DNA from: Gammaproteobacteria bacterium
GTDB lineage: Bacteria > Pseudomonadota > Gammaproteobacteria > Eutrophobiales > Eutrophobiaceae
Length of the DNA stretch: 33,506 nucleotides
Direction of reading: 5' to 3'
Assembly (NCBI GenBank): GCA_030829985.1
Contig: JAURNW010000023.1
Location: 1 to 33,506, forward strand
Shown: positions 139 through 26,643 of the stretch, one piece after another
How the letters are laid out: every line of letters begins with the position of its first letter
Numbering within the stretch: the stretch's first letter is position 1
Translations under genes and position numbers: made by a program
The notes under the pieces: generated by a model
Databases searched by the model: none
What the model was told of the DNA's origin: nothing
Seen by the model: the letters and a program-made list of their open reading frames with translations, nothing else

Positions 139-1005
139 CTTAATAAAATAGTTGAACGCGAAAAGCCGGATTTGATTATCGGATTGTCAGATATATTACA
201 TACATTAATTGCTTCGGTTTTATCAAGGAAATATAAATTGCCTTACATAGTTGATTTATATGATAATTTTGAAAGCTTCGGGTTAGCAATGATCCCAGGT
301 TTAAAAAGATTATTTCAATATGCAATAAAAGACGCTGACGGTATATCTGTTGTATCACCCGAATTAAAGAACTATGTGATCGAGAAATATAAACCAAACT
401 CCAGGATCACAGTTATTGAAAATGCGGTTGATGCAAAAGCCTTTTATCCCATGGATAAAGTTAGTATGCGCAAAATATTTAAACTGCCTGAAAAGGGTAT
501 CTTTATCGGGATGGCTGGAGCGTTAAGCGAAACTAGAGGTATTAGTATACTTTTCAAGGCTTATTTAGAATTACTTAATAATTACGATGATATTTTTCTT
601 GTATTAGCAGGCCCAATAAATAAAAAATCAAAGTTACCGAAATGTTCTAATATTCTATATTTAGGAGTATTGCCATACTCAGAAATCCCTGCATTTCTTA
701 ATACGCTGGATATAGGGGTCATCCTTAACAAAGATGATGCTTTTGGCAAGTATTGTTTCCCGCAAAAATATTATGAAATGTTGTCATGTAAACTACCTAT
801 AGTCGCATCACGAGTGGGTGTAATGTCAAGAGTCCTTTCGGAGACACCAGAAATATTATTTGATCCTGCTGATTCTAAAAGTCTTGTTGCTGCAATAGAA
901 ACGCAGCTAGATAATAAATTCAATATTAATGCTGAGGTATTTACCTGGGACAATCAGTCTAAAAAATTCGCCTCCATGGTGAATGATGTCATAAGCACTC
1001 AGTAA
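139..1005 (+). CDS. GT4-family glycosyltransferase, 5' end missing at the repeat junction
   Basis: The C-terminal part of a retaining GT-B glycosyltransferase of family GT4, which transfers a sugar from a nucleotide-sugar donor in surface polysaccharide synthesis. The frame is open from the repeat edge (LNKIVEREKPDLIIGLSD), but the same frame has a TGA at 127-129 inside the repeat, so the gene is cut there. A TTG at 172 is only the first start-like codon in what remains; roughly the first 80-100 residues of the N-terminal Rossmann domain are lost. The GT4 donor-site signature is present: GVLPYSEIPAFLNTLDIGV, then FPQKYYEMLSCKLPIVAS with the paired glutamate/basic region, then a VGVMSRV loop. 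It is probably non-functional at this locus unless the 5' part is supplied differently. The AT-rich composition matches the next four genes. Confidence 0.85.
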   Translation, partial: LNKIVEREKPDLIIGLSDILHTLIASVLSRKYKLPYIVDLYDNFESFGLAMIPGLKRLFQYAIKDADGISVVSPELKNYVIEKYKPNSRITVIENAVDAKAFYPMDKVSMRKIFKLPEKGIFIGMAGALSETRGISILFKAYLELLNNYDDIFLVLAGPINKKSKLPKCSNILYLGVLPYSEIPAFLNTLDIGVILNKDDAFGKYCFPQKYYEMLSCKLPIVASRVGVMSRVLSETPEILFDPADSKSLVAAIETQLDNKFNINAEVFTWDNQSKKFASMVNDVISTQ

Positions 1006-1009
1006 TTAA

Positions 1010-2422
1010 TTAGTCAAGATTTCTACTATTAAGTAATGTGTTTATTAAGTACATGAAGGTCATAATCAATCCGACCCTTATCATTACTGCACACTGAATC
1101 AAATGACGATCCAACTCCCCAAGATCAGCATGCCATATAATAAGATACAAAATAGCTCCGGCAAATAAGATAAAGATAGGTAGCATGATTTTATTTTTCT
1201 CTATCGGTATTTTTAGGCTTGTAATATAAATTATCATCAATAAAACTATACTAGTAATTACCCATAAAAATAAATCTGTAAATATTATTTGTATTTTTTT
1301 CGTTACAACCTGCTCATGGAAATGTAAGTCAGGAGTTAAATAAAAATAGACAGCTTTATTGTATTGGTTTGTATACTGAAATGGACGAATGAAAAAATAA
1401 GAAGGGTGTGTGATCAAGTATTTTTGATATGTTTTGGAAGAATTATTTAACCACCATTCTTGCAATTCCGGATATTTTTCAAATGGAGCTGTCCACAATT
1501 TTCCGATAACTTCGGGAGCTAATTCAGGCATGCCATTATTTCTAAAATATTCATAGATATCTTCATATCCTTCACTGCTTATACGTGATGATATAAGATC
1601 TTTCATGGGCACATTGGTTCTATCTCCACTGAATAGCATGAATTGATTTAGGGAAAACAATGTAAGTAATGTTGCGATTATAAGCCCATAATTAAGCTTG
1701 TGTTGAAAGTGAGAGTTATAAAAATGATATAAAAAGAAAGGGATTAAAATCAATAAAAAATAATTATTTGTTATTTTAAGAAACGATATAAAAATAAGCA
1801 TTAATATAAATAGTATAAGAAATACTGTTTTTCTAGTAATTAAATTAATATGAATTAGCAAAGATACTGTCAATAAGAGAACAGAGATTGAGATTGATTC
1901 CGTAATTATATGTTTATCCCATATAACAATGCTTGATTCCAAGCCAAGAAATAATATAAATAATAACGAAGTTAATTTTATTTTGAAGTCATTAAAAACA
2001 GTACTAAATGATATGGCCAGTATTACTGATGAAAATATCGACAGTACTAGTTGGAATAGGGATGCGGCAATTACATTAAAATTATCTTTTACAAGAAAAA
2101 AGGGGTAATCATCGAGTAATTCAATCCCCTTAACAATATCTGGTTGATATGAAAATATAGATAAAAAGTTTAAAACACTAGTGTCTGACAAGTGAGTAAA
2201 ATATTTAAGAAAGAATGGATAAAGCGGAGGAACTCCATCCGCCCAGAATAATTTTGACCAAATAGGCGCTAAAGATGTGGCAGCATATTGAGCACTATCA
2301 AACCAGATAACAAAGTATTCTGTTTGAAAATATTCAGATAATCTGATGGCAATAAAAATAAAAATGATGATAGAAAATATAACTCTTTCATTAATCAGGG
2401 TCATTGTTTTATCTTTTGCCAT
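1010..2422 (-). CDS. Polytopic membrane protein, probable GT-C-type glycosyltransferase
   Basis: This 470-residue protein is very hydrophobic, with about ten membrane segments spread along its length. After the first segment it has an acidic loop (IWFDSAQYAA) and then GVPPLYPFFLKYF. The 4576-6162 gene carries a similar pair, WTDSFIYLL and PPLYPFFLSVIG. An acidic residue in the first periplasmic loop is characteristic of the GT-C fold (PMT/ArnT-like enzymes), which take sugars from polyprenyl-phosphate donors on the periplasmic side. I see no closer family match, so donor and acceptor are unknown. It is transcribed toward the truncated GT4 gene, with 4 bp between the stops. It probably belongs with the surrounding glycan genes. 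An alternative is a Wzy-like or uncharacterised membrane protein. Confidence 0.7.
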   Translation of the reverse strand: MAKDKTMTLINERVIFSIIIFIFIAIRLSEYFQTEYFVIWFDSAQYAATSLAPIWSKLFWADGVPPLYPFFLKYFTHLSDTSVLNFLSIFSYQPDIVKGIELLDDYPFFLVKDNFNVIAASLFQLVLSIFSSVILAISFSTVFNDFKIKLTSLLFILFLGLESSIVIWDKHIITESISISVLLLTVSLLIHINLITRKTVFLILFILMLIFISFLKITNNYFLLILIPFFLYHFYNSHFQHKLNYGLIIATLLTLFSLNQFMLFSGDRTNVPMKDLISSRISSEGYEDIYEYFRNNGMPELAPEVIGKLWTAPFEKYPELQEWWLNNSSKTYQKYLITHPSYFFIRPFQYTNQYNKAVYFYLTPDLHFHEQVVTKKIQIIFTDLFLWVITSIVLLMIIYITSLKIPIEKNKIMLPIFILFAGAILYLIIWHADLGELDRHLIQCAVMIRVGLIMTFMYLINTLLNSRNLD

Positions 2423-2563
2423 TACATTACCTACTTAATATTAAATTCGGGAGTTTTTTTCATATATAGTGCTGAGTTTATATTATATGCTAATCCTGAA
2501 TAATATAAATCAAGGATTATTTCTTGGTGCGTACTGTAATTCTAATTGAGTAGAAAAATATGA

Positions 2564-3271
2564 TTAGCGTTTCGATTTTTTTGCGATTAGTAACAAATTT
2601 TTACCAATCGGCATTGGAGTGATCTTATCAAGTTTCTTAATAATGGGTATTACAAGTCGGTCGTATATTTTCGTGGCTTTATCATCAAGGTGTCTTTTCA
2701 ATAAAACAAAATTTAGATACCAAGGTAATATTCCAAGCATATCAATATATTTTACAGTGATAATATCGAAACCATTATCTTCAAATAATTGTATTAGTTG
2801 ACCTTTATGATACCGCCTAAAGTGTCCAATTGATTTATCAAAATCGCTATAAAGCCATGACAAAGCAGGAACGAAGATTAATGCATGTCCATTTTCACTC
2901 AATGAGTAATGCATTTTGGCTACTTCAGCGGAATCATCCTCTATGTGCTCCAGTACATTGGTATATAGGATACTGTTAAACTGTCCGCCATATTTAACAG
3001 TCAATGCACTATTTATCGTTATTATTTTGTCATCATCATTTAATCTTTGAGCAAGCGTGTTAAACATGTTCACAGAAGGTTCGAAAGCCGTAATATTAGA
3101 TATACTATTTTTCGCTGATAATAGTTGTGTGAGGTTTCCAGTGCCAGCCCCGATTTCCGCAATAGTTTCACCAAGATAAGGGCTATAAAGTTCAACAATC
3201 CATTGGTTGTAATTTTTGGCAAAGGACATCGCCTCGAGATCGGTTCCTATATATTCATGCTTTGTAGACAT
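2564..3271 (-). CDS. Class I SAM-dependent methyltransferase
   Basis: A 235-residue Rossmann-fold methyltransferase. Motif I is AEIGAGTGNLTQLL (about residues 38-51), the acidic strand-2 end is AFEPS, and the strand-4 region is LYTNVLEHIEDD. Downstream it has the PALSWLYSDFDKSIGHFRRY segment and a hydrophobic stretch near DMLGILPWYL. This arrangement, including HFRRY, recurs in a second methyltransferase at 7787-8518 and is common in methyltransferases encoded beside polyprenyl-phosphate glycosyltransferases. The substrate is unknown; a sugar or lipid-linked sugar is plausible from context. It lies between two other minus-strand genes with AT-rich gaps of about 110-140 bp, so it may not be tightly co-transcribed. 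No strong Shine-Dalgarno sequence is visible at the chosen ATG. Confidence 0.85.
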   Translation of the reverse strand: MSTKHEYIGTDLEAMSFAKNYNQWIVELYSPYLGETIAEIGAGTGNLTQLLSAKNSISNITAFEPSVNMFNTLAQRLNDDDKIITINSALTVKYGGQFNSILYTNVLEHIEDDSAEVAKMHYSLSENGHALIFVPALSWLYSDFDKSIGHFRRYHKGQLIQLFEDNGFDIITVKYIDMLGILPWYLNFVLLKRHLDDKATKIYDRLVIPIIKKLDKITPMPIGKNLLLIAKKSKR

Positions 3272-3383
3272 ATCAAGTATGATTATTTTCTGTTGAACTT
3301 GAGCATGAAGCCACTAATTCAATATAATTAGATCTTATAGATAAAATAATATGAGTGCGGTTTTGAAAAAGTATAAATCATAT

Positions 3384-4322
3384 TTATTTAATCAGTTTAT
3401 TTCTAAAATACGCTATTGTTTTATTCAACCCGGTTTCCTGATCGATTTTAGGCTGCCAATCAAGTAGATTTCTGGCTTTAGTGATATCTGGGCAACGTTG
3501 TAATGGATCATCAAGAGGAAGAGGCAAGAATGTTAACTCTGATTTGCTATTTGTCAGTTTTATAATTAATTCAGCAATTTCAATGACAGTCATTTCAACC
3601 GGGTTGCCTAAATTAATTGGTGAATGAAGATCGGGTGTATTCATTAATTTTATAAACCCATCTACAAGATCATCGACATAACACAGGGATCTTGTTTGAC
3701 GGCCTTCACCATAAATTGTTATGTTCTCATTATTTAAAGCTTGTACGATGAAGTTGCTGATGACGCGACCATCATTGATAGACATGTTAGGACCATATGT
3801 ATTGAATATCCTGGCAACTCTTATATCGGTTCCTAATTCACGGTGATAATCATAAAAGAGCGTTTCTGCACAGCGCTTACCTTCGTCATAACATGAGCGT
3901 ATCCCAGTACAGTTTACATTACCCCAATAGTCTTCGGTTTGTGGATGAACTGTCGGATCTCCATATATTTCACTGGTCGATGCCTGCAAGACCGTAATTT
4001 TAAGTCGTTTTGCAAGACCGAGAACATTTATCGCCCCTGATACGCTGGTTTTTGTAGTCTGTATAGGATATTTTTGATAATAAACGGGGCTGGCAGGGCA
4101 AGCCAGATTATAAATTTGATCAACCTCAAGATAAACCGGGAAGGTAATGTCATGCCGAATAATTTCGAAATAAGGATTGTCTAATAGCTCGACGATATTA
4201 TCTTTTGAACCCGTATAAAAATTATCAAGGCAAAGCACTTCATTGTCTTCTTCGACTAGCCTTTTACACAGATGGGAACCTAAAAATCCAGCGCCGCCAG
4301 TAACCAATATTCGTTTTTTCAT
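3384..4322 (-). CDS. UDP-glucuronic acid decarboxylase (UDP-xylose synthase)
   Basis: An extended short-chain dehydrogenase/reductase that converts UDP-glucuronate to UDP-xylose through a 4-keto intermediate using bound NAD. The N-terminal NAD site is [14 protein letters not shown] (residues 5-18), followed by [30 protein letters not shown] (72-89) is a hallmark of this subfamily. STSEIYGDP (115-123) and YDEGKR with Tyr145 and Lys149 give the catalytic Ser/Glu, Tyr and Lys. [11 protein letters not shown] and [18 protein letters not shown] complete the usual pattern. The 312-residue length is normal for the bacterial enzyme, which lacks the ArnA formyltransferase domain. In this glycan block it probably supplies xylose, or a derivative, to one of the glycosyltransferases. 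It is divergent from the GT-C gene to its right, across a 253-bp AT-rich gap. Confidence 0.93.
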
Positions 4323-4575
4323 ACTGAAATATATTTAATATAAATTATTTATTCAAATATAATCTAGTTGTTCTGGTTAATCTAGATAATACCTTACTAA
4401 AATTCATTTAATAAGATAAATAGTTAATAAAAGTAGTTTGAAATTCCAGTCAAATACCTTTACTACCATTGAATATTTTTCAATATGAAAACAGGCTTTA
4501 GTAAAAATAAATATTATATCGACTATAAACATTATTGATGCTAATCAATATATAAAATGAGGGTTAAATTCATTG

Positions 4576-6162
4576 ATGGATATTAAAAAATACTTCTCAG
4601 AAGATTGGGCATGGGTTTTATGGATTTTAATATTATTGTCATTAGTTATTCATTTAATTCTTTCACTCAACAATACGCCAGGGTTCTGGACAGATAGTTT
4701 TATTTATTTATTGCAAGCAGACTATTTTACGTTCTGGAACAAGGGACATCCGCCTGTATTAGAACAGGCTATTGTCTATAGAAATTTTCCTCCATTATAT
4801 CCCTTTTTTCTGAGTGTTATTGGAGCAGGCAGCAATAATATAGTAATAGCAAGTATTGCCACTTCATTTTTGCTATTTCCTATATGCATTTTTTACGTCG
4901 ACTGGCAAACCAAGGAAGGGCTAAGTAAGCACAATGCTCTAATTACGGCATTATTATTTGTTCTATTACCCGCTACGTTATTATTTTCCACAGAATTATG
5001 GAGTGAAAATTTATACATCTTACTTGTTCTATTAACTTTGTGGAGCTTTCGCAAGGCGAAAGATGATGCAGACAAATGGTTGTATTTTTCTGCGTTATGT
5101 TGCGGGTTGGCATTTATCACAAGAAGTGTGGGTATTTCATTAGTGGTCGCGTTGCTTATCGCCGTATATTTTTTTGATAAACGGAAGATTATATTAACAA
5201 TTGCGATAATTTTTACGCCCTGGTTAATTTGGGCAGCGCTAAGCAACGAATTTGATTACAGTAATACTTATTTTAAAAATGCATTATTAGAAAGATATAA
5301 AATATATTTGGGGCTACATGAAAATATATTTAATGGCCTATTAGAAATAGCAAAAACACAAACAGAAACATTATGGAAGGGTTTGCAATTACAATTTAAT
5401 AACTCGCTTAATAATGGAACAGCTGTTCTTGCATTTCTAATTACTATTGCAACATTATATTCATTTTTACAGCGTCTCATTTGTTTGTCATTAGATGCAT
5501 TATATGTTCTTTTTTATCTTGGGATAATATTTGTCTGGAATTATTCTGACCATAATGTACGGTTTATTTATGTTGTTGTTCCATTCGTTTTATTCTATTC
5601 CCAGCTAACCATCGTATTTATATTAAAACGGTTAAATAATGACTTAGGTAGATTAAAGAATTTCTTGTTGCCATTGTTAATAAGTGTGGTCATTTTTCCA
5701 TGTATCTTACTTATGGCGGAAAGATTTATTACTATACCGGGTGAAAATATAAAAAATTACAGTAATGATCGGTTCTGGTTAGCAGGAGAAGATAGAAAAA
5801 AAATGTACAAACAATTGGTTTTTAAAAAAGAACTAATTGAATCGGTTAAAGAAATAAAGGAAGTCGTGTCGGAAGATGAATGCATCTATTCAGTTACACA
5901 AGAGATTGTGATGTTGTACGCGCAGCGCAGAGCCATCGTCCCACCATTGCAGAATCTGTATCAAAAGAATTTTATTGAGCAATTAAACCAGTGTCGTTAT
6001 ATGTTAGTTGTTGGCACTGTTTATAGCCAACATGAGCCACTCTATCCAGTAGATAGAGTAAAAGATATTTCATGGGTTCTGCGACAAAAATTTTTCCCAC
6101 AAGAGTTTAGTGGTGAAATCGTTTCAGTATTATTAGAAATTGATAAGAATATAGATATGTGA
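4576..6162 (+). CDS. PMT/ArnT-like GT-C membrane glycosyltransferase
   Basis: A 528-residue protein with about ten or more membrane segments and a soluble C-terminal portion from about residue 395. After the first segment comes the acidic motif GFWTDSFIYLLQADYF and then RNFPPLYPFFLSVIG, the pattern of GT39/GT83-type enzymes that move sugar from polyprenyl phosphate to a protein or lipid acceptor in the periplasm. LFSTELWSENLYILLVLL and TRSVG further on fit the same superfamily. The ATG at 4576 is preferred over the adjoining TTG; GAGGG lies about 12 bases upstream. It resembles the 1010-2422 product in layout and in the PPLYPFFL motif. The acceptor is unknown. It is convergent with suhB, with a 31-bp gap. 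Confidence 0.75.
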   Translation: MDIKKYFSEDWAWVLWILILLSLVIHLILSLNNTPGFWTDSFIYLLQADYFTFWNKGHPPVLEQAIVYRNFPPLYPFFLSVIGAGSNNIVIASIATSFLLFPICIFYVDWQTKEGLSKHNALITALLFVLLPATLLFSTELWSENLYILLVLLTLWSFRKAKDDADKWLYFSALCCGLAFITRSVGISLVVALLIAVYFFDKRKIILTIAIIFTPWLIWAALSNEFDYSNTYFKNALLERYKIYLGLHENIFNGLLEIAKTQTETLWKGLQLQFNNSLNNGTAVLAFLITIATLYSFLQRLICLSLDALYVLFYLGIIFVWNYSDHNVRFIYVVVPFVLFYSQLTIVFILKRLNNDLGRLKNFLLPLLISVVIFPCILLMAERFITIPGENIKNYSNDRFWLAGEDRKKMYKQLVFKKELIESVKEIKEVVSEDECIYSVTQEIVMLYAQRRAIVPPLQNLYQKNFIEQLNQCRYMLVVGTVYSQHEPLYPVDRVKDISWVLRQKFFPQEFSGEIVSVLLEIDKNIDM

Positions 6163-6193
6163 CTATAGTATGTATATGAACAGCAACATTATT

Positions 6194-6964
6194 CTAATTA
6201 ATAGTTTTAAGTATAGTTTTGATTAGTTTTGGATTAGCACAAACAATATTACCGCTCTCCATAAAATTTAACCCGCCTGATATCTCACTATTAAGCCCCC
6301 CGGCCTCTTGAACAATCAATGCTCCGGCTGCTATATCCCAGGGTTTTAAATTATATTCCCAAAAACCATCTAAACGGCCGCAGGCTACGTAAGCAAGATC
6401 TAAAGACGCAACGCCAGCACGTCTTATTCCAGCTATATTGGGATAGAGCGCTTTAAAACTAGTGATGAATTCATCAACTTTAGGGTTATCGCCAAAAGGG
6501 AATCCTGTGCCAAGTAAAGCGCCATCCAATGTTTTCTGGGTGCTAACACGAATTTTTTTATTATTAAGTTGAGCGCCTTTTCCTTGCGATGCAGTAAATA
6601 GTTCCTGTTTTAAAGGATCATAAATGACTGCCTGGTCGAGACGTCCTTTGTGTTCAAGGGCGATAGATACTGCAAAATGTGGAAAGCCATGCAGAAAATT
6701 TGTTGTACCGTCGAGCGGATCAATGATCCATGTAAAATCACTATCTCCAGATTTACCACTTTCTTCGCATAAAAAAGCATGATCAGGATATGATTTTTTA
6801 ATGGTATTAATAATAGTGAATTCGGCTTGCGTATCCACTTCTGTGACAAAATCATTTTTACCTTTTATATCGACAGAAATATCACCCACACGATCCATTT
6901 CACGTACAATAAGATCTCCAGCTGCACGGGCAGCGCGTATAGCGATATTGAGCATTGGATGCAT
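6194..6964 (-). CDS. suhB: Inositol-1-monophosphatase family protein SuhB
   Basis: A Mg-dependent phosphatase of the inositol monophosphatase family. In E. coli, SuhB also joins the NusA/NusB/NusE antitermination complex on rRNA operons, so the catalytic activity may not be its main role. Metal-binding residues are visible: Glu67 and Glu68 in LCEESG, WIIDPLDGTTNFLHG with Asp82 and Asp85, and the later KPWDIAAGALIVQEAGG motif. The 256-residue length is close to that of the E. coli protein. It is transcribed away from trmJ with 72 bp between start codons, the same divergent pairing as in E. coli, which supports orthology rather than a sugar-phosphatase paralogue of the glycan cluster. Confidence 0.93.
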   Translation of the reverse strand: MHPMLNIAIRAARAAGDLIVREMDRVGDISVDIKGKNDFVTEVDTQAEFTIINTIKKSYPDHAFLCEESGKSGDSDFTWIIDPLDGTTNFLHGFPHFAVSIALEHKGRLDQAVIYDPLKQELFTASQGKGAQLNNKKIRVSTQKTLDGALLGTGFPFGDNPKVDEFITSFKALYPNIAGIRRAGVASLDLAYVACGRLDGFWEYNLKPWDIAAGALIVQEAGGLNSEISGGLNFMESGNIVCANPKLIKTILKTIN

Positions 6965-7036
6965 AAGTGTTTAAATTCCTCGGAAGTTTTAAAACGTATT
7001 CAATGTTGAATGAAAGAATGAGTTAAATTGATAAAT

Positions 7037-7759
7037 ATGAATTCTGTATTAAATAATGTACGTATTGTTCTGGTTGGTACCACACACCCCGGCAATATAG
7101 GGGCTGCAGCTCGGGCAATGAAAACAATGTCACAGGATAAACTATATTTAGTCAATCCAAAAGAATTTCCTTCTGCTGAAGCAACTGCGAGGGCAACAGG
7201 CGCAGATGATATATTGGCACAGGCGAGCATACATTCGGATTTGAAGTCTGCTATATCGGATTGTCAGTTGGTCATAACAACCAGTGCGAGAGTGAGGAGT
7301 ATTCCATGGCCAATGGTGACGCCGCGTGAGTGCGCGGAAAAAATTGCTGAATCGAGTAGTGAGTCTACCGCAATTGTTTTTGGAAGGGAAAACTCCGGAC
7401 TCAGTAATGAGGAAATGGAATTGGGTAATTTGGTATTGCAAATTCCGACTAATTCAAAATACAGTTCACTTAATTTAGCTGCTGCAGTTCAAATTATCTG
7501 TTATGAGTTATTACTTAAAGGAAAAGGCAGTGAGGTTGCCATTGATAAAGAAATATTTCCCACCGTTAATCAAGATAAAATGGAAATGTTTTATCAACAT
7601 CTTGAACAATGCATGATTGATATTGGATATCATGATACTAATAACCCGCGTAAATTAATGCATAGAATGCGACGCTTGTTTAATCGTGCCCAATTAGATG
7701 AAAGTGAATGGAAAATATTGCGTGGTTTTTTGTCCAGCGTTCAAAACTTACGTGAATAA
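7037..7759 (+). CDS. trmJ: tRNA (cytidine/uridine-32-2'-O)-methyltransferase TrmJ
   Basis: A SPOUT-class methyltransferase that methylates the 2'-OH of nucleotide 32 in the tRNA anticodon loop. Motif 1 is VLVGTTHPGNIGAAARAMK near the N-terminus, motif 2 is VFGRENSGLSNEEM, and motif 3 is IPTNSKYSSLNLAAAVQI, forming the knotted SAM site. The C-terminal part contains PRKLMHRMRRLFNRAQLDESEW, typical of TrmJ. I chose ATG 7037 (240 residues); a TTG at 7028 would add three residues. The gene faces away from suhB as in E. coli, but here a glycan-type methyltransferase follows rather than iscR. Confidence 0.93.
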   Translation: MNSVLNNVRIVLVGTTHPGNIGAAARAMKTMSQDKLYLVNPKEFPSAEATARATGADDILAQASIHSDLKSAISDCQLVITTSARVRSIPWPMVTPRECAEKIAESSSESTAIVFGRENSGLSNEEMELGNLVLQIPTNSKYSSLNLAAAVQIICYELLLKGKGSEVAIDKEIFPTVNQDKMEMFYQHLEQCMIDIGYHDTNNPRKLMHRMRRLFNRAQLDESEWKILRGFLSSVQNLRE

Positions 7760-7786
7760 CAGAACAGTAAAGACATTATTGTAATT

Positions 7787-8518
7787 ATGGAAAATCAATT
7801 ATTTGATGAGATGTATAAAGTTGAATCTCAACACTGGTGGTTTGTTGCAAGACGAAAGATAATTGCTAATGTTATAAAAAATTTAGCATTGGGAAAAGAC
7901 GCCAAAATATTAGATGCTGGATGTGGTAATGGAGACAATCTTGAGATGTTATCCAAAGCTGGACAGTTAGTTGCTATAGAAAGAGATGAAAATGCCCTAG
8001 CACGGTCGAAATCAAGACATATAGCAGATGTATTTAAAGGTGAATTACCCGATAATTTGCCAGTGCATATTGATAAAGAAAACGATTTAATCGTGTTGTT
8101 AGATGTTTTAGAACACATTGACGATGATCAAAAAAGCTTATCTGTACTAGCTAGCTGGGCAAAAAACAATGGGAAATTATTAATGACTGTTCCAGCATAT
8201 CAATTTCTTTGGACTGTTCATGATGAGTTACATCATCATAAACGAAGGTATAATATTAATAATTTAAAAAAAGTCATAGAGAATAATGGTTGGAAAATAC
8301 AGTATATTTCTTATTTTAATACCTTGTTATTCCCTCTGGCGTTGATTGACCGATTAAAACAAAAAATATTTCCATCATCAAAAGTAAATGAACTGAATAT
8401 GCCTAATAGTATTATTAACTCAATTTTTGAAAAAATATTCAGTCTGGAATTAAATATTATTGGCAAGTTCTCATTACCTTTTGGGCTATCAATACTCGTT
8501 ATTGCTGAAAAAGAGTGA
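7787..8518 (+). CDS. Class I SAM-dependent methyltransferase (GT2-associated)
   Basis: A 243-residue methyltransferase. Motif I is ILDAGCGNGDNLEMLSKAG (about residues 41-59), strand 2 ends in AIERDE, and strand 4 is IVLLDVLEHIDDD. It continues with MTVPAYQFLWTVHDELHHHK and RRYNINNLKKVIENNGW. An N-terminal segment (MYKVESQHWWFVARRKII) before motif I is typical of methyltransferases encoded next to DPM1-like glycosyltransferases. It starts 27 bp after trmJ, and the GT2 gene begins 7 bp after its stop, so the two are very likely co-transcribed and may act on the same lipid-linked sugar. The substrate is not known. AT-rich relative to trmJ. Confidence 0.85.
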   Translation: MENQLFDEMYKVESQHWWFVARRKIIANVIKNLALGKDAKILDAGCGNGDNLEMLSKAGQLVAIERDENALARSKSRHIADVFKGELPDNLPVHIDKENDLIVLLDVLEHIDDDQKSLSVLASWAKNNGKLLMTVPAYQFLWTVHDELHHHKRRYNINNLKKVIENNGWKIQYISYFNTLLFPLALIDRLKQKIFPSSKVNELNMPNSIINSIFEKIFSLELNIIGKFSLPFGLSILVIAEKE

Positions 8519-8525
8519 TTTCTAC

Positions 8526-9509
8526 ATGGAAAATATAAAATCAAACGAACAAAAAATATTATCCATTGTTGCACCAGCTTACAATGAGTCTGACAGTCTT
8601 AATGAGTTCTATTCAAGGTTACTAAGTTCCACTCAGGATTTGGAACTCAATCTGGAAATTGTATATGTAAATGATGGGAGTACTGACAATACGTTCGAAA
8701 TAATGAAGGCTCAGTATAGTAATGATCCACGAATCTCTATTATTAACCTGAGTAGAAACTTTGGTAAGGAAATTGCGCTGACAGCAGGCTTGGATCATGC
8801 TTTGGGTGATGCGATTGTAGTTATAGATACCGATCTACAGGATCCGCCAGAATTAATTGCTGATTTAGTTTTAAAGTGGCTGGCTGGCAATGATGTTGTC
8901 AATGCACGAAGAATTAAAAGAAAAGGAGAAAGCTGGCTTAAAAAACTTACCTCCTTTATTTATTATCGTTTTTTATATCAATTAAGTGATATTAAAATTC
9001 CAAAAGACACAGGTGATTTTAGACTGTTAAGCCGCGCTGCCCTTGATGCGCTGCTTAAATTAAGAGAAAAACATCGTTATATGAAAGGTCTGTTTGCATG
9101 GGTAGGATTCACGCAAGCAGAAATCACTTATGAGCGTGATGAACGTTACGCAGGCAAAACTAAATGGAGTTTTTGGAATTTAGTGAACCTGGCATTTGAA
9201 GGACTGACTTCATTTTCTGTATTGCCCTTACGACTTGCATCAATGATGGGCTTTCTATCCGCTTTTATTGCACTGATTTTCGGGATAACGATCATTTTTA
9301 AGAAGTTTTTATATGGCGATCCTGTTGCTGGTTATCCCTCCCTGGTTGTATTGATAACCTTTATCGGTGGGATGCAACTTCTAGCACTTGGTGTCATCGG
9401 GGAATATCTAGGTCGTGTATTTAATGAAACAAAAAACAGGCCGCTATATATTGTTAAGGACATTCATGAATCCAGTTATCTAACAAATCAAGTAACTTCT
9501 GAAAGCTAA
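8526..9509 (+). CDS. GT2 polyprenyl-phosphate glycosyltransferase (DPM1/GtrB/ArnC-like)
   Basis: An inverting family-2 glycosyltransferase that loads a sugar from a nucleotide donor onto undecaprenyl phosphate at the cytoplasmic face. The GT-A domain has SIVAPAYNESDSL, IVYVNDGSTDNT (Asp50), then IDTDLQDPPELI with the metal-binding DxD, and the RxxRKxGESWLKKLTSFIYYR region. The C-terminal third has two membrane segments (about 235-262 and 272-298), as in GtrB and ArnC. ATG 8526 (327 residues) is chosen; upstream extension would overlap the methyltransferase. Its product could serve as donor for the two GT-C proteins at 1010-2422 and 4576-6162. Sugar identity is unknown. It is convergent with purM, with 15 bp between the stops. 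Confidence 0.88.
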   Translation: MENIKSNEQKILSIVAPAYNESDSLNEFYSRLLSSTQDLELNLEIVYVNDGSTDNTFEIMKAQYSNDPRISIINLSRNFGKEIALTAGLDHALGDAIVVIDTDLQDPPELIADLVLKWLAGNDVVNARRIKRKGESWLKKLTSFIYYRFLYQLSDIKIPKDTGDFRLLSRAALDALLKLREKHRYMKGLFAWVGFTQAEITYERDERYAGKTKWSFWNLVNLAFEGLTSFSVLPLRLASMMGFLSAFIALIFGITIIFKKFLYGDPVAGYPSLVVLITFIGGMQLLALGVIGEYLGRVFNETKNRPLYIVKDIHESSYLTNQVTSES

Positions 9510-15783: not shown

Positions 15784-17364
15784 TTACATCGAGTTATATT
15801 TAAATATTTCATAAGAAATGCTTGAGTCATGCATACTCCCAGCAACAATTTTTTCAGTTTTTTCACCACGTTTTATTTCAAGTTCACGGTCTGCCATGTA
15901 AAGACCTTTTTCTGCAATTATGGAGAACATATTTGAGTTGTTGACGTGATTAATAAGAAATCCTGGCTTGAACTCTCGATCGGATTTGCTACCGGCGCAG
16001 GCGCGTAGAGCAATTGGTTTGGCTGTTTCAGAAATTATCTGTAAACCAACCTTATGAATGCCCCGACTGACCATAAGCCACCGTACTACCGCAATAGACC
16101 AGATATTATCCTGTACATTAACACCTGTCAGATCACCGACACGAATTGCCTTTTTAAGTTTATCATCTTTGATGATGGCATAACCTTCGGTGCCTTCATC
16201 AACAATTCGCCAGCATTCAGGAATGTAATTAATCTGAGGTGGTGTTTCAGTCCGGGTTTCAGATATGTCAATTTCCTCATCATCGCTAGCAATGGCTATA
16301 TTCCTGAAAGCTTTACCATCATTTAAAAAGTAATAGATAGCGCCAATACCAGTAACAATGTTCAATTGTCCCGATTTTGCATTTCTTGGAAAATAACGTT
16401 TAGGTGGTAATCTCCAGGCTTTTAACATGTGAGCGAGCAGTGACTTGGCATAAAAAGGGGATAACACTATGGATTTATCGATCTGCTGACCTTTCTGAAG
16501 CAAATCAATTTGTTTCTGTATCAGGTTCTCAAGCGGGGTCGAATCGAGCAAACGACAATTCTCGTTTGCGTTTTCCTGATTAAATTTCTCTAATGGTATT
16601 GGCTTGCTATCACTTTTTAAATCGAATGCAAAATATCCGGTCGTGGTTGATACAGTCTTCAGTGGATGTATCTGTGTATATTCTGCCCAGCTATCCAACT
16701 GCTCGTAAATCTCCCAAATAGCGCCGAAAGGAAGGTGATGTGGATCAACCAGAGAGGCCATAATGATTCGTTTGTATATATGGTCAATGGTAGTGTTTAT
16801 GTTTTTATTATTTGCTCCGGGAATTGCATAGCTCTTTTTGTGACACTGGATAGACTCGGCAAAGTCATAGATAAAATTAAGCTGTTGCCAAACGTTTTTC
16901 GGGACAGGTGAATATTCCAGAAAACTGAAAACGAGGGCATGCGACAAATAATTCATCGACATCAGCATAGCTTCAACCGGAGGCTTGGTTTTTTTCCAAA
17001 GTGTTTTTTTGTTTAAAGCAGTATCAAAGGCCAATTTAAATGAGAAACTCAAAGCAACAGCAATTTGCTTCATTTGACTAACCTGGGTCTGCATCGCGTC
17101 TATTGTTTGTAGTGTATGCTGTGCGCCAGCCTTTATTTGCGATTCGACATAATATTGATAGGGTCGATTATAGAGTTCTATCAACTCGATTCTGGTTGAG
17201 GATTTAATAGTTGCCTTATTGGTTGCTACCAATGCATCGTAAAGTAGTATGCTGGTTTTTTTGAAATCAATATAAGGTAATGAGTCTAGCCATTCCTCAA
17301 CATAAAGCGGTCGAGTTTCAATCTCGTCACCACGTGCGGTTTTTCTTGTTGGCAATTGATTCAT
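15784..17364 (-). CDS. Hypothetical protein with helical N-terminal region and PilZ-like C-terminus
   Basis: A 526-residue soluble protein. It opens TRPLYVEEWLDSLPYID and continues with a long helical region that includes RIELIELYNRPYQYYVES. This is the start of a family of beta/gammaproteobacterial proteins that I recall being annotated as PilZ-domain proteins. The C-terminal part (about 384-526) looks beta-rich: GYAIIKDDKLKKAIRVGDLT, then WSIAVVRWLMVSRGIHKVGL and QIISETAKPIALRA. That resembles a diverged PilZ barrel, but the canonical RxxxR and D/NxSxxG pair is not clearly present, so cyclic-di-GMP binding is uncertain. It has no signal peptide or membrane segment. It stands alone, divergent from acyP. 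Confidence 0.6.
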   Translation of the reverse strand: MNQLPTRKTARGDEIETRPLYVEEWLDSLPYIDFKKTSILLYDALVATNKATIKSSTRIELIELYNRPYQYYVESQIKAGAQHTLQTIDAMQTQVSQMKQIAVALSFSFKLAFDTALNKKTLWKKTKPPVEAMLMSMNYLSHALVFSFLEYSPVPKNVWQQLNFIYDFAESIQCHKKSYAIPGANNKNINTTIDHIYKRIIMASLVDPHHLPFGAIWEIYEQLDSWAEYTQIHPLKTVSTTTGYFAFDLKSDSKPIPLEKFNQENANENCRLLDSTPLENLIQKQIDLLQKGQQIDKSIVLSPFYAKSLLAHMLKAWRLPPKRYFPRNAKSGQLNIVTGIGAIYYFLNDGKAFRNIAIASDDEEIDISETRTETPPQINYIPECWRIVDEGTEGYAIIKDDKLKKAIRVGDLTGVNVQDNIWSIAVVRWLMVSRGIHKVGLQIISETAKPIALRACAGSKSDREFKPGFLINHVNNSNMFSIIAEKGLYMADRELEIKRGEKTEKIVAGSMHDSSISYEIFKYNSM

Positions 17365-19975: not shown

Positions 19976-21703
19976 GTGGCTAAAAAGAGAGAAATACTTC
20001 GCGGCGCAGAAATTTTCTGTCGTGCGCTCAAAGATGAAGGGGTCAAACACTTGTTTGGGTACCCTGGTGGTGCTGTATTGCATATCTATGACGAGCTCTA
20101 CAAACAAGATGCTGTACAACACATACTGGTCCGTCATGAACAAGGTGCGACGCATGCTGCTGATGGTTATGCGCGTGCGACGGGTAAACCAGGTGTCGTT
20201 CTGGTTACCTCAGGTCCTGGCGCTACTAATGCAGTGACAGGTATTGCGACAGCTTATATGGATTCAATTCCTCTGGTTGTTTTTACCGGGCAGGTACCGA
20301 CTCACATGATTGGAAACGATGCCTTTCAGGAAGTCGATGCGATCGGCATCACACGCCCCTGTGTTAAGCATAATTTTTTGGTGAAGGACGTAAAAGATCT
20401 GGCCAAGACTATTAAGAAAGCTTTCTATGTTGCTACCAGTGGCCGACCAGGTCCAGTTGTGGTCGATATACCAAAAGATGTTACGGCAGATTCCTGTGAG
20501 TATGATTACCCTAAGGAAGTTGAGATGCGTTCTTATCGACCGGTAGTCAAAGGGCATCCAGGACAAATAAAGAAAGCAGCAAAATTGATTCTGTCCGCCA
20601 AGAAGCCGATGATCTATTCCGGTGGTGGCGTCATTCTGGGTGAAGCCAGTCAGGAACTTATCGATTTTTCACGTCTGTTAGGTTATCCCGTAACCAATAC
20701 CTTGATGGGTCTTGGCGCGTTTCCAGCGACTGATAAACAGTTTATTGGCATGCTTGGTATGCATGGTACCTACGAAGCGAACATGGGTATGCATCATTGT
20801 GATGTACTTATTGCTATAGGCGCCCGATTCGATGATCGTGTAACTGGTGATCTGGAAAAATTCTGTCCCTACGCCAAGATTGTACATATTGATGTGGACC
20901 CTTCTTCTATTGCGAAGAATGTTCCTGTTGATATTCCTATCGTTGGTGATGTCAAACATGTTCTGACAGATTTAATTGATCTCATTAAAAATGATAAGGA
21001 AAAGCCTGATGCCAAGGCGCTTAAATCCTGGTGGCAGCAGATGCATGACTGGGCTGCAATTGATTGTCTGAAATTTGATCGAACGACTGATGTTATTAAA
21101 CCGCAGTATGTTGTTGAGAAACTGTGGGAGCTTACAAAAGGTGATGCTTATGTAACATCAGATGTGGGTCAACATCAGATGTGGGCAGCACAATTTTATA
21201 AGTTTGATAAACCACGACGTTGGATCAACTCCGGTGGTTTAGGCACCATGGGCTTTGGTTTACCTGCTGCTATGGGTGTCAAACTGGCTTTTCCTGAAGA
21301 GACTGTTGCTTGCATAACCGGCGAAGCGAGTCTGGTTATGTGTATTCAGGAATTATCGACCTGCCTGCAATACAACACGCCGGTTAAAATTATTAGTTTG
21401 AATAATCGTTATATGGGGATGGTTCGTCAATGGCAGGAGTTTTTCTATTCCAGTCGTTATTCACATTCATACATGGAAGCCTTACCCGATTTTGTCAAAA
21501 TGGCGGAAAGCTATGGTCATGTCGGTATGCGCATTGAAAAAACCAGTGATGTCGAAGGTGCTTTGAAAGAAGCGTTGGCAATGACAGATCGTACCGTCTT
21601 GATGGATTTCGTTACAGACCAGACAGAAAATGTTTATCCGATGATAGCCGCTGGTAAAGGCCATCATGAGATGCACTTGCAGCCTGATCGGGAACTCGCT
21701 TAA
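19976..21703 (+). CDS. ilvI: Acetolactate synthase, large catalytic subunit
   Basis: A thiamine-diphosphate enzyme that forms acetolactate or acetohydroxybutyrate, the first common step of Val, Leu and Ile synthesis. The start is GTG at 19976 with GGAAG four bases upstream; MAKKREILRGAEIFCRALKD is the expected N-terminus. The catalytic glutamate lies in VRHEQGATHAADGYARATG. The FAD/central domain includes IAIGARFDDRVTGDLEKF. The ThDP motif reads ITGEASLVMC and reaches NN 24 residues after GEA (residues 449-451): glutamate replaces the metal-binding aspartate, as in related enzymes, but the third glycine is alanine. The 575-residue length and the partner size match IlvI/IlvH rather than IlvB/IlvN. 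ilvH starts 2 bp downstream. Confidence 0.95.
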   Translation: MAKKREILRGAEIFCRALKDEGVKHLFGYPGGAVLHIYDELYKQDAVQHILVRHEQGATHAADGYARATGKPGVVLVTSGPGATNAVTGIATAYMDSIPLVVFTGQVPTHMIGNDAFQEVDAIGITRPCVKHNFLVKDVKDLAKTIKKAFYVATSGRPGPVVVDIPKDVTADSCEYDYPKEVEMRSYRPVVKGHPGQIKKAAKLILSAKKPMIYSGGGVILGEASQELIDFSRLLGYPVTNTLMGLGAFPATDKQFIGMLGMHGTYEANMGMHHCDVLIAIGARFDDRVTGDLEKFCPYAKIVHIDVDPSSIAKNVPVDIPIVGDVKHVLTDLIDLIKNDKEKPDAKALKSWWQQMHDWAAIDCLKFDRTTDVIKPQYVVEKLWELTKGDAYVTSDVGQHQMWAAQFYKFDKPRRWINSGGLGTMGFGLPAAMGVKLAFPEETVACITGEASLVMCIQELSTCLQYNTPVKIISLNNRYMGMVRQWQEFFYSSRYSHSYMEALPDFVKMAESYGHVGMRIEKTSDVEGALKEALAMTDRTVLMDFVTDQTENVYPMIAAGKGHHEMHLQPDRELA

Positions 21704-21705
21704 TT

Positions 21706-22197
21706 ATGCGCCATATTCTTTCTTTACTTCTGGAAAATGAAGCCGGGGCTTTGTCACGAGTTGCAGGTTTATTCTCTGCACGTGCATTTAATATTGAATC
21801 ACTGACTGTTGCGCCAACAGAAGATCCAACGATTTCACGTATGACTGTTGTTACCAGTGGTTCAGATGCAATTATTGAACAAATAACAAAACAACTAAAT
21901 AAACTGGTCGACGTCATAAAGGTAGTCGATCTGAATGAGTATCGTCATATAGAACGCGAACTGATGTTAATTAAGTTAACAGCGCAAAAAACAGATCGTG
22001 ATGAAATTAAACGCATGGTCGATATTTTTCGCGGCCGTATTATTGATGTGACAGAGAATACCTACACTATCGAAATGACAGGCACAGGTGAAAAACTTAA
22101 TGCCTTCATAGAAGCACTGGATGACAGCATAATACTTGAAGTTGTTCGTTCTGGCGTTTCCGGTATATCACGTGGCGATAAAGCCATTCAATCCTAA
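21706..22197 (+). CDS. ilvH: Acetolactate synthase, small regulatory subunit
   Basis: A 163-residue regulatory subunit that binds valine through its N-terminal ACT domain and activates the large subunit. MRHILSLLLENEAGALSRVA followed by GLFSARAFNIESLTVAPTED is the ACT-domain signature. The second half (from about residue 80) is the ALS_ss C-terminal domain, with ELMLIKLTAQ, MVDIFRGRIIDV and the ending EVVRSGVSGISRGDKAI. The length equals that of E. coli IlvH, not the shorter IlvN. It lies 2 bp after ilvI and 37 bp before ilvC, in one operon. Confidence 0.96.
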   Translation: MRHILSLLLENEAGALSRVAGLFSARAFNIESLTVAPTEDPTISRMTVVTSGSDAIIEQITKQLNKLVDVIKVVDLNEYRHIERELMLIKLTAQKTDRDEIKRMVDIFRGRIIDVTENTYTIEMTGTGEKLNAFIEALDDSIILEVVRSGVSGISRGDKAIQS

Positions 22198-22207
22198 GAT
22201 TTATTAA

Positions 22208-23251
<1,044 letters not shown>

Positions 23252-23357: not shown

Positions 23358-24020
23358 ATGCCCAGTAATCGATATCCATTAATTGCGCGCGAAACCTGGT
23401 CAATATTATTTGTATTGCTTGGACTAGCGGTTCTTGCACAACTATTTATTGGACCTGTTGCATTCGTTTTAGCACTTACAGTTTTATTCGTTACGGTATA
23501 TCTCTTTCGTGATCCTGACCGAATCATCCCATCTCAACCATTGGCAATCGTCAGTCCGGTATATGGTGTAGTCACACTGATTGAAGAAGCGGAAGAAATA
23601 CGTTTACATAACAAGGCAATTCGTGTGCAGATAACCATGCGTTTCCATGATATTTATTCTTTTCGCAGCCCGATTGAAGGGAAGGTCATGGACCAATGGT
23701 GTTCAGCACCGAATGAAAATGAATCACGTCGGCATTTCGATTTTTATATAAAATCAGATGAAGGCGACATTGTTGTTACCGCTATCAGACTTAGAAACTT
23801 AATCCGTCGTTTTCATGTATATTTATTTTCTGGAGAACGAGTGGGTCAGGGTCAACGTTGCGGTTATTTCTATTTTGGTGGCGTTATCGATGTTTTTTTG
23901 CCGCTCGAATCCAAGCTACAGGTAGAGGTTGGTCAATATGTCCAATCAGGTAGTTCAGTGCTAGCTCGATTAATCCATTCCAAGGCCACTAGTGTTATTC
24001 AAGATGACAATAACACCTGA
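23358..24020 (+). CDS. Phosphatidylserine decarboxylase-like protein lacking the catalytic triad
   Basis: A 220-residue homologue of the short Psd enzymes that convert phosphatidylserine to phosphatidylethanolamine through a self-generated pyruvoyl group. The start (YPLIARETWSILF), two N-terminal membrane segments (about 14-50), FRDPDR and the GERVGQGQRCGYFYFG region align with real Psd proteins. The catalytic residues do not: the Asp of P-x-D-G is Tyr69 (SPVYGVV), the His of N-V-H-x-x-R-S-P is Tyr100 (DIYSFRSP), and the self-cleaving Ser of FGS is Gly175 (YFGGVIDVFLP). The middle loop with FPG-x-F-L-N is also shortened. Self-processing and decarboxylation should therefore be impossible. The gene is open and keeps its usual place between ilvC and pssA, so it looks like a maintained pseudoenzyme rather than random decay. 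Confidence 0.85.
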   Translation: MPSNRYPLIARETWSILFVLLGLAVLAQLFIGPVAFVLALTVLFVTVYLFRDPDRIIPSQPLAIVSPVYGVVTLIEEAEEIRLHNKAIRVQITMRFHDIYSFRSPIEGKVMDQWCSAPNENESRRHFDFYIKSDEGDIVVTAIRLRNLIRRFHVYLFSGERVGQGQRCGYFYFGGVIDVFLPLESKLQVEVGQYVQSGSSVLARLIHSKATSVIQDDNNT

Positions 24021-24117: not shown

Positions 24118-24870
24118 GTGACGGAATATAAGCGTGGAATTTATTTGTTACCCAACCTGTTTACAACCGGTGCGTTGTTTGCGGGTTTCTATTCCATCGT
24201 GGCTGCAATGAATGAACAATTTGAACCAGCAGCGATTGCCATCTTTGTCGCTATGGTATTGGATGGTATGGATGGGCGTATTGCGCGTTTAACTAATACA
24301 GCCAGTGAGTTTGGTATGCAATACGATAGTTTATCGGACATGATTTCTTTTGGTCTTGCGCCTGCTCTGATTATGTATCAATGGGCCTTGTCTGATATAG
24401 GCAAATTGGGATGGCTAGCCTCATTTGTATATACCGCGTCAGCAGCATTGAGACTCGCCCGATTTAATACACAAGCGACCAGTATTGATAAACGTTATTT
24501 TCAGGGGTTGCCTAGTCCAGCAGCGGCAGCAGTTTTAGCCGGTATGATCTGGTTTGGTAGTAGCTATGGTTTAGAAGATGGTGCTAGCGTCATTGTGTTT
24601 TGTTTACCCATAACCTTACTTGTTGGCATTTTAATGGTCAGTAATATTCGTTATCACAGTTTCAAGCAGCTAGATTTGAAGGGACGCGTACCTTTCATGG
24701 CGGTATTGGTTATTGTTCCGATATTTGTATTAATAGCTGTTGAGCCACCATTGGTACTTTGTTTAATAACATCGTTATATGCTATCTCCGGGCCGATATT
24801 AACTCTGATATTAATACGCAAACATCGCGAATCGAGAAAGGTTAGTGATGTGGATGCCGGAAACACTTGA
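24118..24870 (+). CDS. pssA: CDP-diacylglycerol--serine O-phosphatidyltransferase
   Basis: A membrane enzyme of the CDP-alcohol phosphotransferase family that makes phosphatidylserine from CDP-diacylglycerol and serine. The diagnostic motif D-G-x2-D-G-x2-A-R-x8-G-x3-D-x3-D is complete in VLDGMDGRIARLTNTASEF plus GMQYDSLSDMISFG, giving the metal-binding aspartates. About eight membrane segments fill the remaining 250 residues, as in the Bacillus-type (not E. coli-type) PssA. The start is GTG 24118 (MTEYKRGIYLLPNLFTTGAL), about a hundred bases after the psd-like gene. Its product is the normal substrate of Psd, so the loss of catalytic residues in the neighbour is striking. A candidate promoter for the leuA leader overlaps its stop codon. 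Confidence 0.94.
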   Translation: MTEYKRGIYLLPNLFTTGALFAGFYSIVAAMNEQFEPAAIAIFVAMVLDGMDGRIARLTNTASEFGMQYDSLSDMISFGLAPALIMYQWALSDIGKLGWLASFVYTASAALRLARFNTQATSIDKRYFQGLPSPAAAAVLAGMIWFGSSYGLEDGASVIVFCLPITLLVGILMVSNIRYHSFKQLDLKGRVPFMAVLVIVPIFVLIAVEPPLVLCLITSLYAISGPILTLILIRKHRESRKVSDVDAGNT

Positions 24871-25107: not shown

Positions 25108-26643
25108 ATGAAGGACAAATTAATCATTTTTGATACCACTTTGCGTGATGGTGAGCAAAGCCCCGGCGCTTCGATGACGAAGGATGAAAAGCTTCGTATT
25201 GCCAAGGCCCTTGAGAAGATGCGTGTCGATATTATCGAAGCGGGATTTCCCATTGCAAGCCAGGGCGATTTTGAAGCCGTGAAAGCGGTTGCTGAAATGG
25301 TCACGGAAAGTACCGTATGTGGTTTAGCTCGTGCGTTGGACAAGGATATTGATCGTGCAGCTGAAGCCTTGAAACCGGCTAAGTCATCGCGTATTCACAC
25401 TTTTCTTGCAACGTCTCCAATACACATGCGGGAAAAATTACGTATGGAACCGGATCAGGTAGTTGAACATGCTGTGCGTGCGGTAAAGCGCGCCAGAAAC
25501 TATACCGATAACGTTGAATTTTCCCCCGAAGATGCGGGTCGCTCAGAATTTGATTTTTTGTGTCGTGTAATAGAAGCAACTATCGATGCTGGTGCAACGA
25601 CGATTAATATCCCTGATACAGTGGGTTACAACTTACCGCAGTATTTTGGTGATTTGATCGGCAAGCTGATTGAAAATATTCCAAACTCTGACAAGGCGGT
25701 CTTTTCAGTACATTGTCATAACGATTTAGGTTTGGCCGTGGGCAATTCATTGGCGGCGGTTTTGAATGGTGCACGACAAGTTGAATGCACGATTAATGGT
25801 TTGGGTGAACGCGCTGGTAACGCGGCACTTGAAGAAGTAGTTATGACCGTACGCACACGCAGGGATATCTTTAGTTGCGACACGGATCTTGATACCACCC
25901 AGATTATGCATTGTTCGCGTCTTGTCTCTACTATTACCGGGTTTCCGGTACAGCCCAATAAAGCGATTGTTGGTGCTAATGCTTTCGCACATGAATCGGG
26001 TATCCATCAGGATGGTGTATTAAAAAGTCGAGAGACGTATGAAATCATGCGTGCCGAAGATGTTGGCTGGAATGCAAACCGTATGGTTTTGGGTAAGCAC
26101 TCCGGTCGTAATGCGTTTCGTACACGATTGGAAGAATTGGGCATTACCTTCGATAAGGAAGAGGATTTAAATGCTGCGTTTTCCAGCTTTAAAGATTTAG
26201 CTGACAAGAAACATGAGATCTTTGACGACGACTTGCAAGCATTGGTCAGCGATACGATTCAGGAAGGTGCTAATGACTGGATTAAATTGATTTCACTTAA
26301 AGCCAGTATTGAAACCGGTGAGATACCTAAAGCAGAGATTACACTTTCTATAGATGGAGTAGAGAAACGTGCCAACGCCGAAGGTGGTGGTCCAGTTGAT
26401 GCGACTTTTAAGGCTATAGAAAGCTTGATCAATAGTGGTTGCAATCTTCAACTTTATTCAGTCAACAACATAACCACCGGTACAGACTCACAAGGTGAAG
26501 TGACTGTGCGGATTGATCGTGAGGGACGTATTGTTAACGGGCTGGGTGCTGATACTGATATTGTGACGGCGTCTGCCAAGGCCTATATCAATGCCTTAAA
26601 CAAAGTGTTTAGCGAGAGTGAACGCGCGCATCCGCAGGTCTGA
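25108..26643 (+). CDS. leuA: 2-isopropylmalate synthase
   Basis: Condenses acetyl-CoA with 2-ketoisovalerate, the first committed step of leucine synthesis; ketoisovalerate comes from the upstream ilv products. The TIM-barrel catalytic domain opens [16 protein letters not shown], with the metal-binding aspartate, and has [20 protein letters not shown] and [22 protein letters not shown]-terminal LeuA dimer/allosteric domain (about 390-505) carries the leucine feedback site. At 511 residues it is the standard proteobacterial size. The start has GGAG ten bases upstream. A 237-bp leader region with a leucine-rich ORF and hairpins precedes it. Confidence 0.97.

Follow-up and report, generated by a model that had tools for sequence, protein, structure and literature searches.

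Between the ilvC and pssA genes of the window (the whole stretch of DNA analysed, 33,506 nucleotides in length) lies a gene, here termed pseudo-psd, coding for a homologue of the small phosphatidylserine decarboxylases (Psds) from which the Asp-His-Ser triad and the substrate loop have been lost. It belongs to a single clade of such proteins, which is subject to purifying selection, retains a set of invariant residues outside the old active site, and in most of the genomes concerned coexists with a second Psd of the Escherichia coli type. The explanation preferred, judged about equally likely to be right or wrong, is that this is an old clade of Psd pseudoenzymes kept as a non-catalytic helper or scaffold of the phosphatidylserine (PS)/phosphatidylethanolamine (PE) pathway, the His, the Ser and the loop having been lost after, or as, the E. 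coli-type Psd took over. If that is true, this clade, sampled in 53 families and located next to a core phospholipid gene, would constitute a new component or regulator of membrane lipid synthesis. A search of the open-access literature by title or abstract opening, with few subscription journals covered, returned neither a triad-less Psd clade nor a Psd pseudoenzyme among the matches listed.

The lost triad and substrate loop

The frame of pseudo-psd is open, and its product contains an N-terminal hydrophobic stretch (approximately residues 14–50). Homology to Psd over the domain is evident from the match to PF02666 (51.2 bits against a cut-off of 22), the Pfam family to which the E. coli-type Psds also belong (structures in PMC7952604). 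With the small Psds PRK05305.1-5 (NF003680), the triad of which is intact, the protein is homologous over its full length (hhalign probability 100), and it further shares with them the hydrophobic N-terminus and, in the case of most intact rows, the ilvC-pssA locus. Unlike these enzymes, the window copy lacks the triad Asp, His and Ser, the NER loop motif and AGLxARR, and all 11 of the NCBIfam models that it matches do so below their cut-offs, the best at 118.2 bits versus 262.

Triad positions were assigned from an alignment of the window protein with small Psds of intact triad and the genome's own E. coli-type enzyme. In the latter, the first His of the DYHRIH motif aligns with position 100, and from the numbering is presumably E. 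coli His144. Both the alignment and the codons concerned bear out the claim, made in an earlier note on this DNA, that Tyr69, Tyr100 and Gly175 have replaced the catalytic residues (Table 1).

Table 1. Features of the pseudo-psd locus in the window
Feature	Position	Strand	Remarks
Acetolactate synthase large subunit	19976..21703	+	Upstream of pseudo-psd
Probable ilvH (acetolactate synthase small subunit)	21706..22197	+	By position, and sequence by eye
ilvC	22235..23251	+	Upstream neighbour of pseudo-psd
pseudo-psd	23358..24020	+	Triad-less homologue of small (PRK05305-type) Psd, 220 aa
Codon 69, TAT (Tyr)	23562..23564	+	Triad Asp in active relatives; alignment with intact Psds
Codon 100, TAT (Tyr)	23655..23657	+	Essential His in active relatives; alignment with intact Psds
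Glu107 of RSPxEGK	23676..23678	+	Kept in 126/127 broken copies
Asp134-Glu135-x-Asp137	23757..23768	+	Asp134 and Glu135 in 127/127 broken copies, Asp137 in 122/127
GERxGQGQRCG (residues 159-169)	23832..23864	+	Clade hallmark; Gly159 127/127, Arg161 126/127, Gly163 125/127
Codon 175, GGC (Gly)	23880..23882	+	Self-cleaving Ser of FGS in active relatives; alignment with intact Psds
pssA, type II CDP-diacylglycerol-serine O-phosphatidyltransferase	24118..24870	+	TIGR00473, 123.4 bits versus cut-off 107
leuA, 2-isopropylmalate synthase	25108..26643	+	Downstream neighbour

The loss of all three residues holds for the window copy but not for the clade as a whole: among 127 homologues with a broken triad, three residues were lost in only 30, two in 77 and one in 20, the Asp being retained in 95 copies, the His in five and the Ser in 17. 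The shortening of the substrate loop which the earlier note had also described was confirmed, and extends to its relatives. The span from position 110 to before position 134 comprises 32 residues in all 21 intact-triad rows and all 16 rows from outside the class, and a median of 24 (range 14–44) in 126 broken rows; the NER/NEQ motif occurs in none of those 126, the window copy included, in 20 of the 21 intact and in all 16 outgroup rows, and AGLxARR in none, 21 and 16 respectively. Even the looser pattern [FL]xNA is restricted to six of the 126 broken rows, as against every intact and outgroup row. The hydrophobic N-terminus is kept in 97% of the broken rows. Decay confined to this one genome was considered and rejected, its relatives having the same losses.

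The designation of the protein as a pseudoenzyme is supported by known Psd chemistry: according to PMC7952604, the H144A and H144N variants of E. coli Psd formed no PE, and the S254A variant underwent no cleavage. The clade presumably lacks decarboxylase activity. Lipid binding, which the earlier note had suggested as a possibility, is so far unsupported as regards the old route, the substrate loop being gone.

Promoter-like (10) and terminator-like (2) sites around pseudo-psd showed no excess over shuffled sequences. Elsewhere in the window, the genes at positions 172–9509 include glycosyltransferases, methyltransferases and an epimerase (Pfam), perhaps a surface-glycan region, and two long open reading frames on the minus strand (1010–2422, 470 aa; 15784–17364, 526 aa) gave no Pfam match at thresholds of 1e-6 and 1e-4.

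Extent, origin and locus of the clade

A search of 370 genomes of the window's class with profile A1 yielded matches in 132, intact-triad copies included, and the window protein itself was matched in 28 of 58 relatives; named near relatives of the window are Gammaproteobacteria. All but one of the 132 matching genomes were read (G213, with 45 positions at E 2.5e-4, was left out), and rows that were duplicates (L031–L040, L051, L066, L002), partial (L030, L172) or weak (L174, 25 bits) were dropped. The 149 usable homologues from the class consisted of 127 with a broken and 22 with an intact triad, the latter including L173, which was read without its N-terminal part. The window's own family contributed 23 of the broken rows, because one of the searches was made on relatives; further genomes of that family in which PF02666 matched a second time (G406, G407, G415–G419) were left out. 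The broken rows represent 53 families and 82 genera, the intact rows 12 families and 17 genera, and no family holds both forms. Scans of viral contigs gave no relative with A3, and with A4 a single partial one (L262), which was excluded.

On an unrooted tree the split between intact and broken forms required one change (support 94). When rooted with 16 intact-triad rows from other classes, the tree again required one change and placed the broken rows, the window copy included, in one clade (SH-aLRT 92), and a branch with a support of 99 separated 125 of the 126 broken rows from L099 together with the intact and outgroup rows. The trees were quick ones constructed without bootstrap and with the three triad columns excluded, L170 and L173 being omitted from the rooted tree. 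The row L099 (genome G402) is intermediate in character, with a Tyr in place of the His, the Ser and FGSR kept, a degenerate loop and a motif of the pseudo-type. A fusion to a neighbouring gene, at which long open frames had hinted, was not found in L055 or L063, the two examples inspected, the long frame there extending upstream of an ordinary start.

Of the 127 broken copies, 119 are flanked by ilvC upstream and by pssA downstream, all in one orientation; most of the intact rows occupy the same locus, and the median distance between the family match and the PssA match is 100 bases. For the other eight, the stretch examined contains ilvC but lacks pssA in four cases (L010, L110, L112 and L057, the last with only 941 downstream bases), contains pssA but lacks ilvC in three (L130, L131, L170) and shows neither gene in L146, pssA thus being absent downstream of five of the 127 within the stretch examined. 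In two of these genomes, G107 (L110) and G227 (L112), pssA is located on a different contig from pseudo-psd. A longer version of L010 from the window's genus (L038, genome G002, 5001–8821) displays, by eye, ilvC and pseudo-psd followed by an elongation-factor-G-like gene in place of pssA-leuA.

The gene has been cleanly lost more than once. Among 55 pssA loci from genomes without the family, ilvC lies 22–335 bases before pssA in 25, leaving no room for pseudo-psd; these comprise 12 of 17 such loci in the window's own family, from seven genera (L177, L178, L180, L181, L182, L184–L188, L190, L191), and 13 of 38 elsewhere. The pssA gene scores over its cut-off in 334 of the 370 class genomes, compared with the 132 that match the pseudo-psd/Psd family, active copies included.

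Selection and the retained residues

Nei-Gojobori estimates of dN/dS ranged from 0.037 to 0.281 in 16 pairs of broken copies, several with dS near saturation, and from 0.060 to 0.108 in seven pairs from the window's genus; for PssA and IlvC the values in the same pairs were mostly lower than for pseudo-psd. At an IlvC identity of 0.70, the median identity of broken Psds was 0.36 and that of PssA 0.57 (1833 pairs), the equivalent figures for intact Psds being 0.54 and 0.51 (29 pairs). The broken Psd is therefore relaxed relative to the intact form, yet far from neutral. According to the earlier note, triad-bearing relatives at the same locus, with relaxed selection on this copy, would have made it a case of simple decay; such relatives exist but in other families, and simple decay is not the explanation since the broken form constitutes one clade under purifying selection.

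On the tree of 126 broken rows, no change was inferred at Asp134, Glu135 and Gly159, and one each at Pro67, Glu107, Arg161 and Gly163, against a median of 42 per column (203 columns). With 35 and 38 changes respectively, the old His and Ser columns resemble ordinary ones, and the Asp column, with 15, is more conserved than most. When each family was represented by one row, the invariant columns were Glu107, Asp134, Glu135, Gly159 and Gly163; the window copy keeps all five together with Arg161.

These results make it very improbable that the gene is a slowly decaying relic, or a stretch kept just for spacing or for translation into pssA. Evolution faster than that of intact Psd and the repeated clean loss of the gene would fit such a relic, but dN/dS values of 0.04–0.28, three columns free of any change across 126 broken rows, the 100-base median distance to the PssA match, and the retention of the invariant residues even in L010, L110, L112 and L146, for which the sequence read contains no downstream pssA, all argue against it.

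Part of the motif already occurs alongside an intact triad: L080 and L085 have Glu107 and DExD, L118 has Glu107 and DE, and L111 has DExD. Judging from these sequences, the motif of the pseudo-clade appears in part to predate the loss of the triad. This bears on the notion of a new enzyme, in which the clade would have traded its chemistry for a different one, the old fold now carrying a newly acquired catalytic or metal site made up of Glu107, Asp134-Glu135-x-Asp137 and Arg161. The invariance of acidic and basic residues across 53 families speaks for such a site, but their partial presence in the four intact copies implies that they may instead serve structure or assembly, and no fold model brings the candidate residues together, so that a new enzyme is regarded as improbable. 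An AlphaFold2 model built with nine sequences from the genus (mean pLDDT 46.1, pTM 0.34) was too poor to place the invariant residues, and a PDB sequence search returned three matches up to E 1, the best at 0.27, none of them a Psd.

The E. coli-type Psd and possible roles

The inference of the earlier note that the cell must use another Psd is supported. Unlike pseudo-psd, the second Psd of the window's genome is of the E. coli type, 290 aa in length, encoded on another contig (C35), and intact in its SPVDG, DYHRIH and MGST motifs; with this enzyme present, the alternative of a cell lacking PE is not needed. A Psd was counted as of the E. coli type when its PF02666 match had E<1e-48, residues having been read for the second Psd of the window's genome only. 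By this criterion, such an enzyme was recorded in 119 of the 127 genomes with a broken copy, the window's included, versus none of the 22 with an intact copy, each of which gave a single PF02666 match (E 1.6e-33 to 4.1e-47). The margin in E value is narrow, the best intact-copy genome reaching 4.1e-47 and the worst broken-copy genome 4.3e-49. Fisher's test of the association gave 5e-20, a value that overstates independence because the split between intact and broken forms is one event on the tree, and its link to the other Psd does not therefore represent many independent events.

Of the broken-copy genomes without a marked E. coli-type Psd, G010 contains two further PF02666 fragments, and none was found in the remaining seven (G017, G118, G217, G240, G261, G302 and G331, G240 and G331 being of one genus). 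A search of these seven and of G235 with a one-protein query also detected no E. coli-type Psd, a result that is uninformative alone since no positive genome was included. The seven exceptions reflect either gaps in the assemblies or cells that lack the usual Psd.

These seven genomes offer some encouragement to the idea that the protein is still an active Psd operating via substitute residues, as do two properties of the E. coli enzyme given in PMC7952604, namely that Asp90 and Asp142 can replace each other and that H144 mutants are substantially cleaved once purified. Nevertheless, the idea is hardly credible: position 175 of the window copy is neither Ser, Thr nor Cys, the E. coli H144 mutants make no PE (PMC7952604), the substrate loop is gone, and 119 of the 127 genomes have another Psd.

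A role alongside PssA or the other Psd is suggested by the locus. As regards PssA, the regulatory role proposed in the earlier note has found no support so far, in that the PssA sequences next to broken copies are little different from the rest. A comparison of 119 PssA sequences adjacent to broken copies with 57 others revealed no clear co-adaptation: the largest Jensen-Shannon divergence was 0.23, and PssA position 133 provided four independent pairs only. The group of 57 was slightly mislabelled, L211 and L231 being from G107 and G227, which have the gene elsewhere. The evidence on a partner role is thus divided between synteny in 119 of 127 copies and a PssA without clear co-adaptation.

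The same evidence bears on whether the product is a selected membrane protein with a job unrelated to PS or PE, its locus inherited rather than functional. The lack of clear co-adaptation in PssA, the far wider distribution of pssA than of pseudo-psd, and the persistence of copies apart from pssA are all compatible with an unrelated job, but 119 of the 127 copies still lie between ilvC and pssA, and on balance this reading is considered doubtful.

On the preferred explanation of a non-catalytic helper or scaffold, the starting point would have been a small Psd that was active and lay between ilvC and pssA, a form still present with its triad intact in 12 sampled families. The His, the Ser and the substrate loop would then have been lost after, or as, the unlinked E. 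coli-type Psd took over PE synthesis, and the protein retained for a non-catalytic job dependent on other residues, those of Glu107, Asp134-Glu135-x-Asp137 and GERxGQG, some of them shared with the closest relatives of active type. The N-terminal hydrophobic stretch most likely places the protein in the membrane, where it would most plausibly assist the PS/PE pathway, its partner being either PssA or the second Psd. Counting against this explanation are the lack of clear PssA co-adaptation, the repeated loss of the gene, the wider distribution of pssA, the five copies with no pssA in the stretch examined, the faster evolution of the broken copies and the seven genomes in which no E. coli-type Psd was found. 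A further proposition, put forward tentatively and thought unlikely, is that an active Psd turned early in the Gammaproteobacteria into a dedicated, widely inherited protein in which Glu107, Asp134-Glu135-x-Asp137 and GERxGQG make up a new catalytic, metal-binding or partner-binding site controlling the flow of PS between PssA and the E. coli-type Psd. Depending on the family, the ilvC-pssA locus holds an active copy, a dead one or no gene at all, which makes the question directly testable.

The retention of an inactive homologue beside active relatives is a feature of pseudoenzymes generally, an example being the inactive LytM protein DipM. Representatives of all 53 families with a broken copy match NCBIfam models named phosphatidylserine decarboxylase and the window protein does so below the cut-offs, so that loose annotation can call a Psd where none exists.
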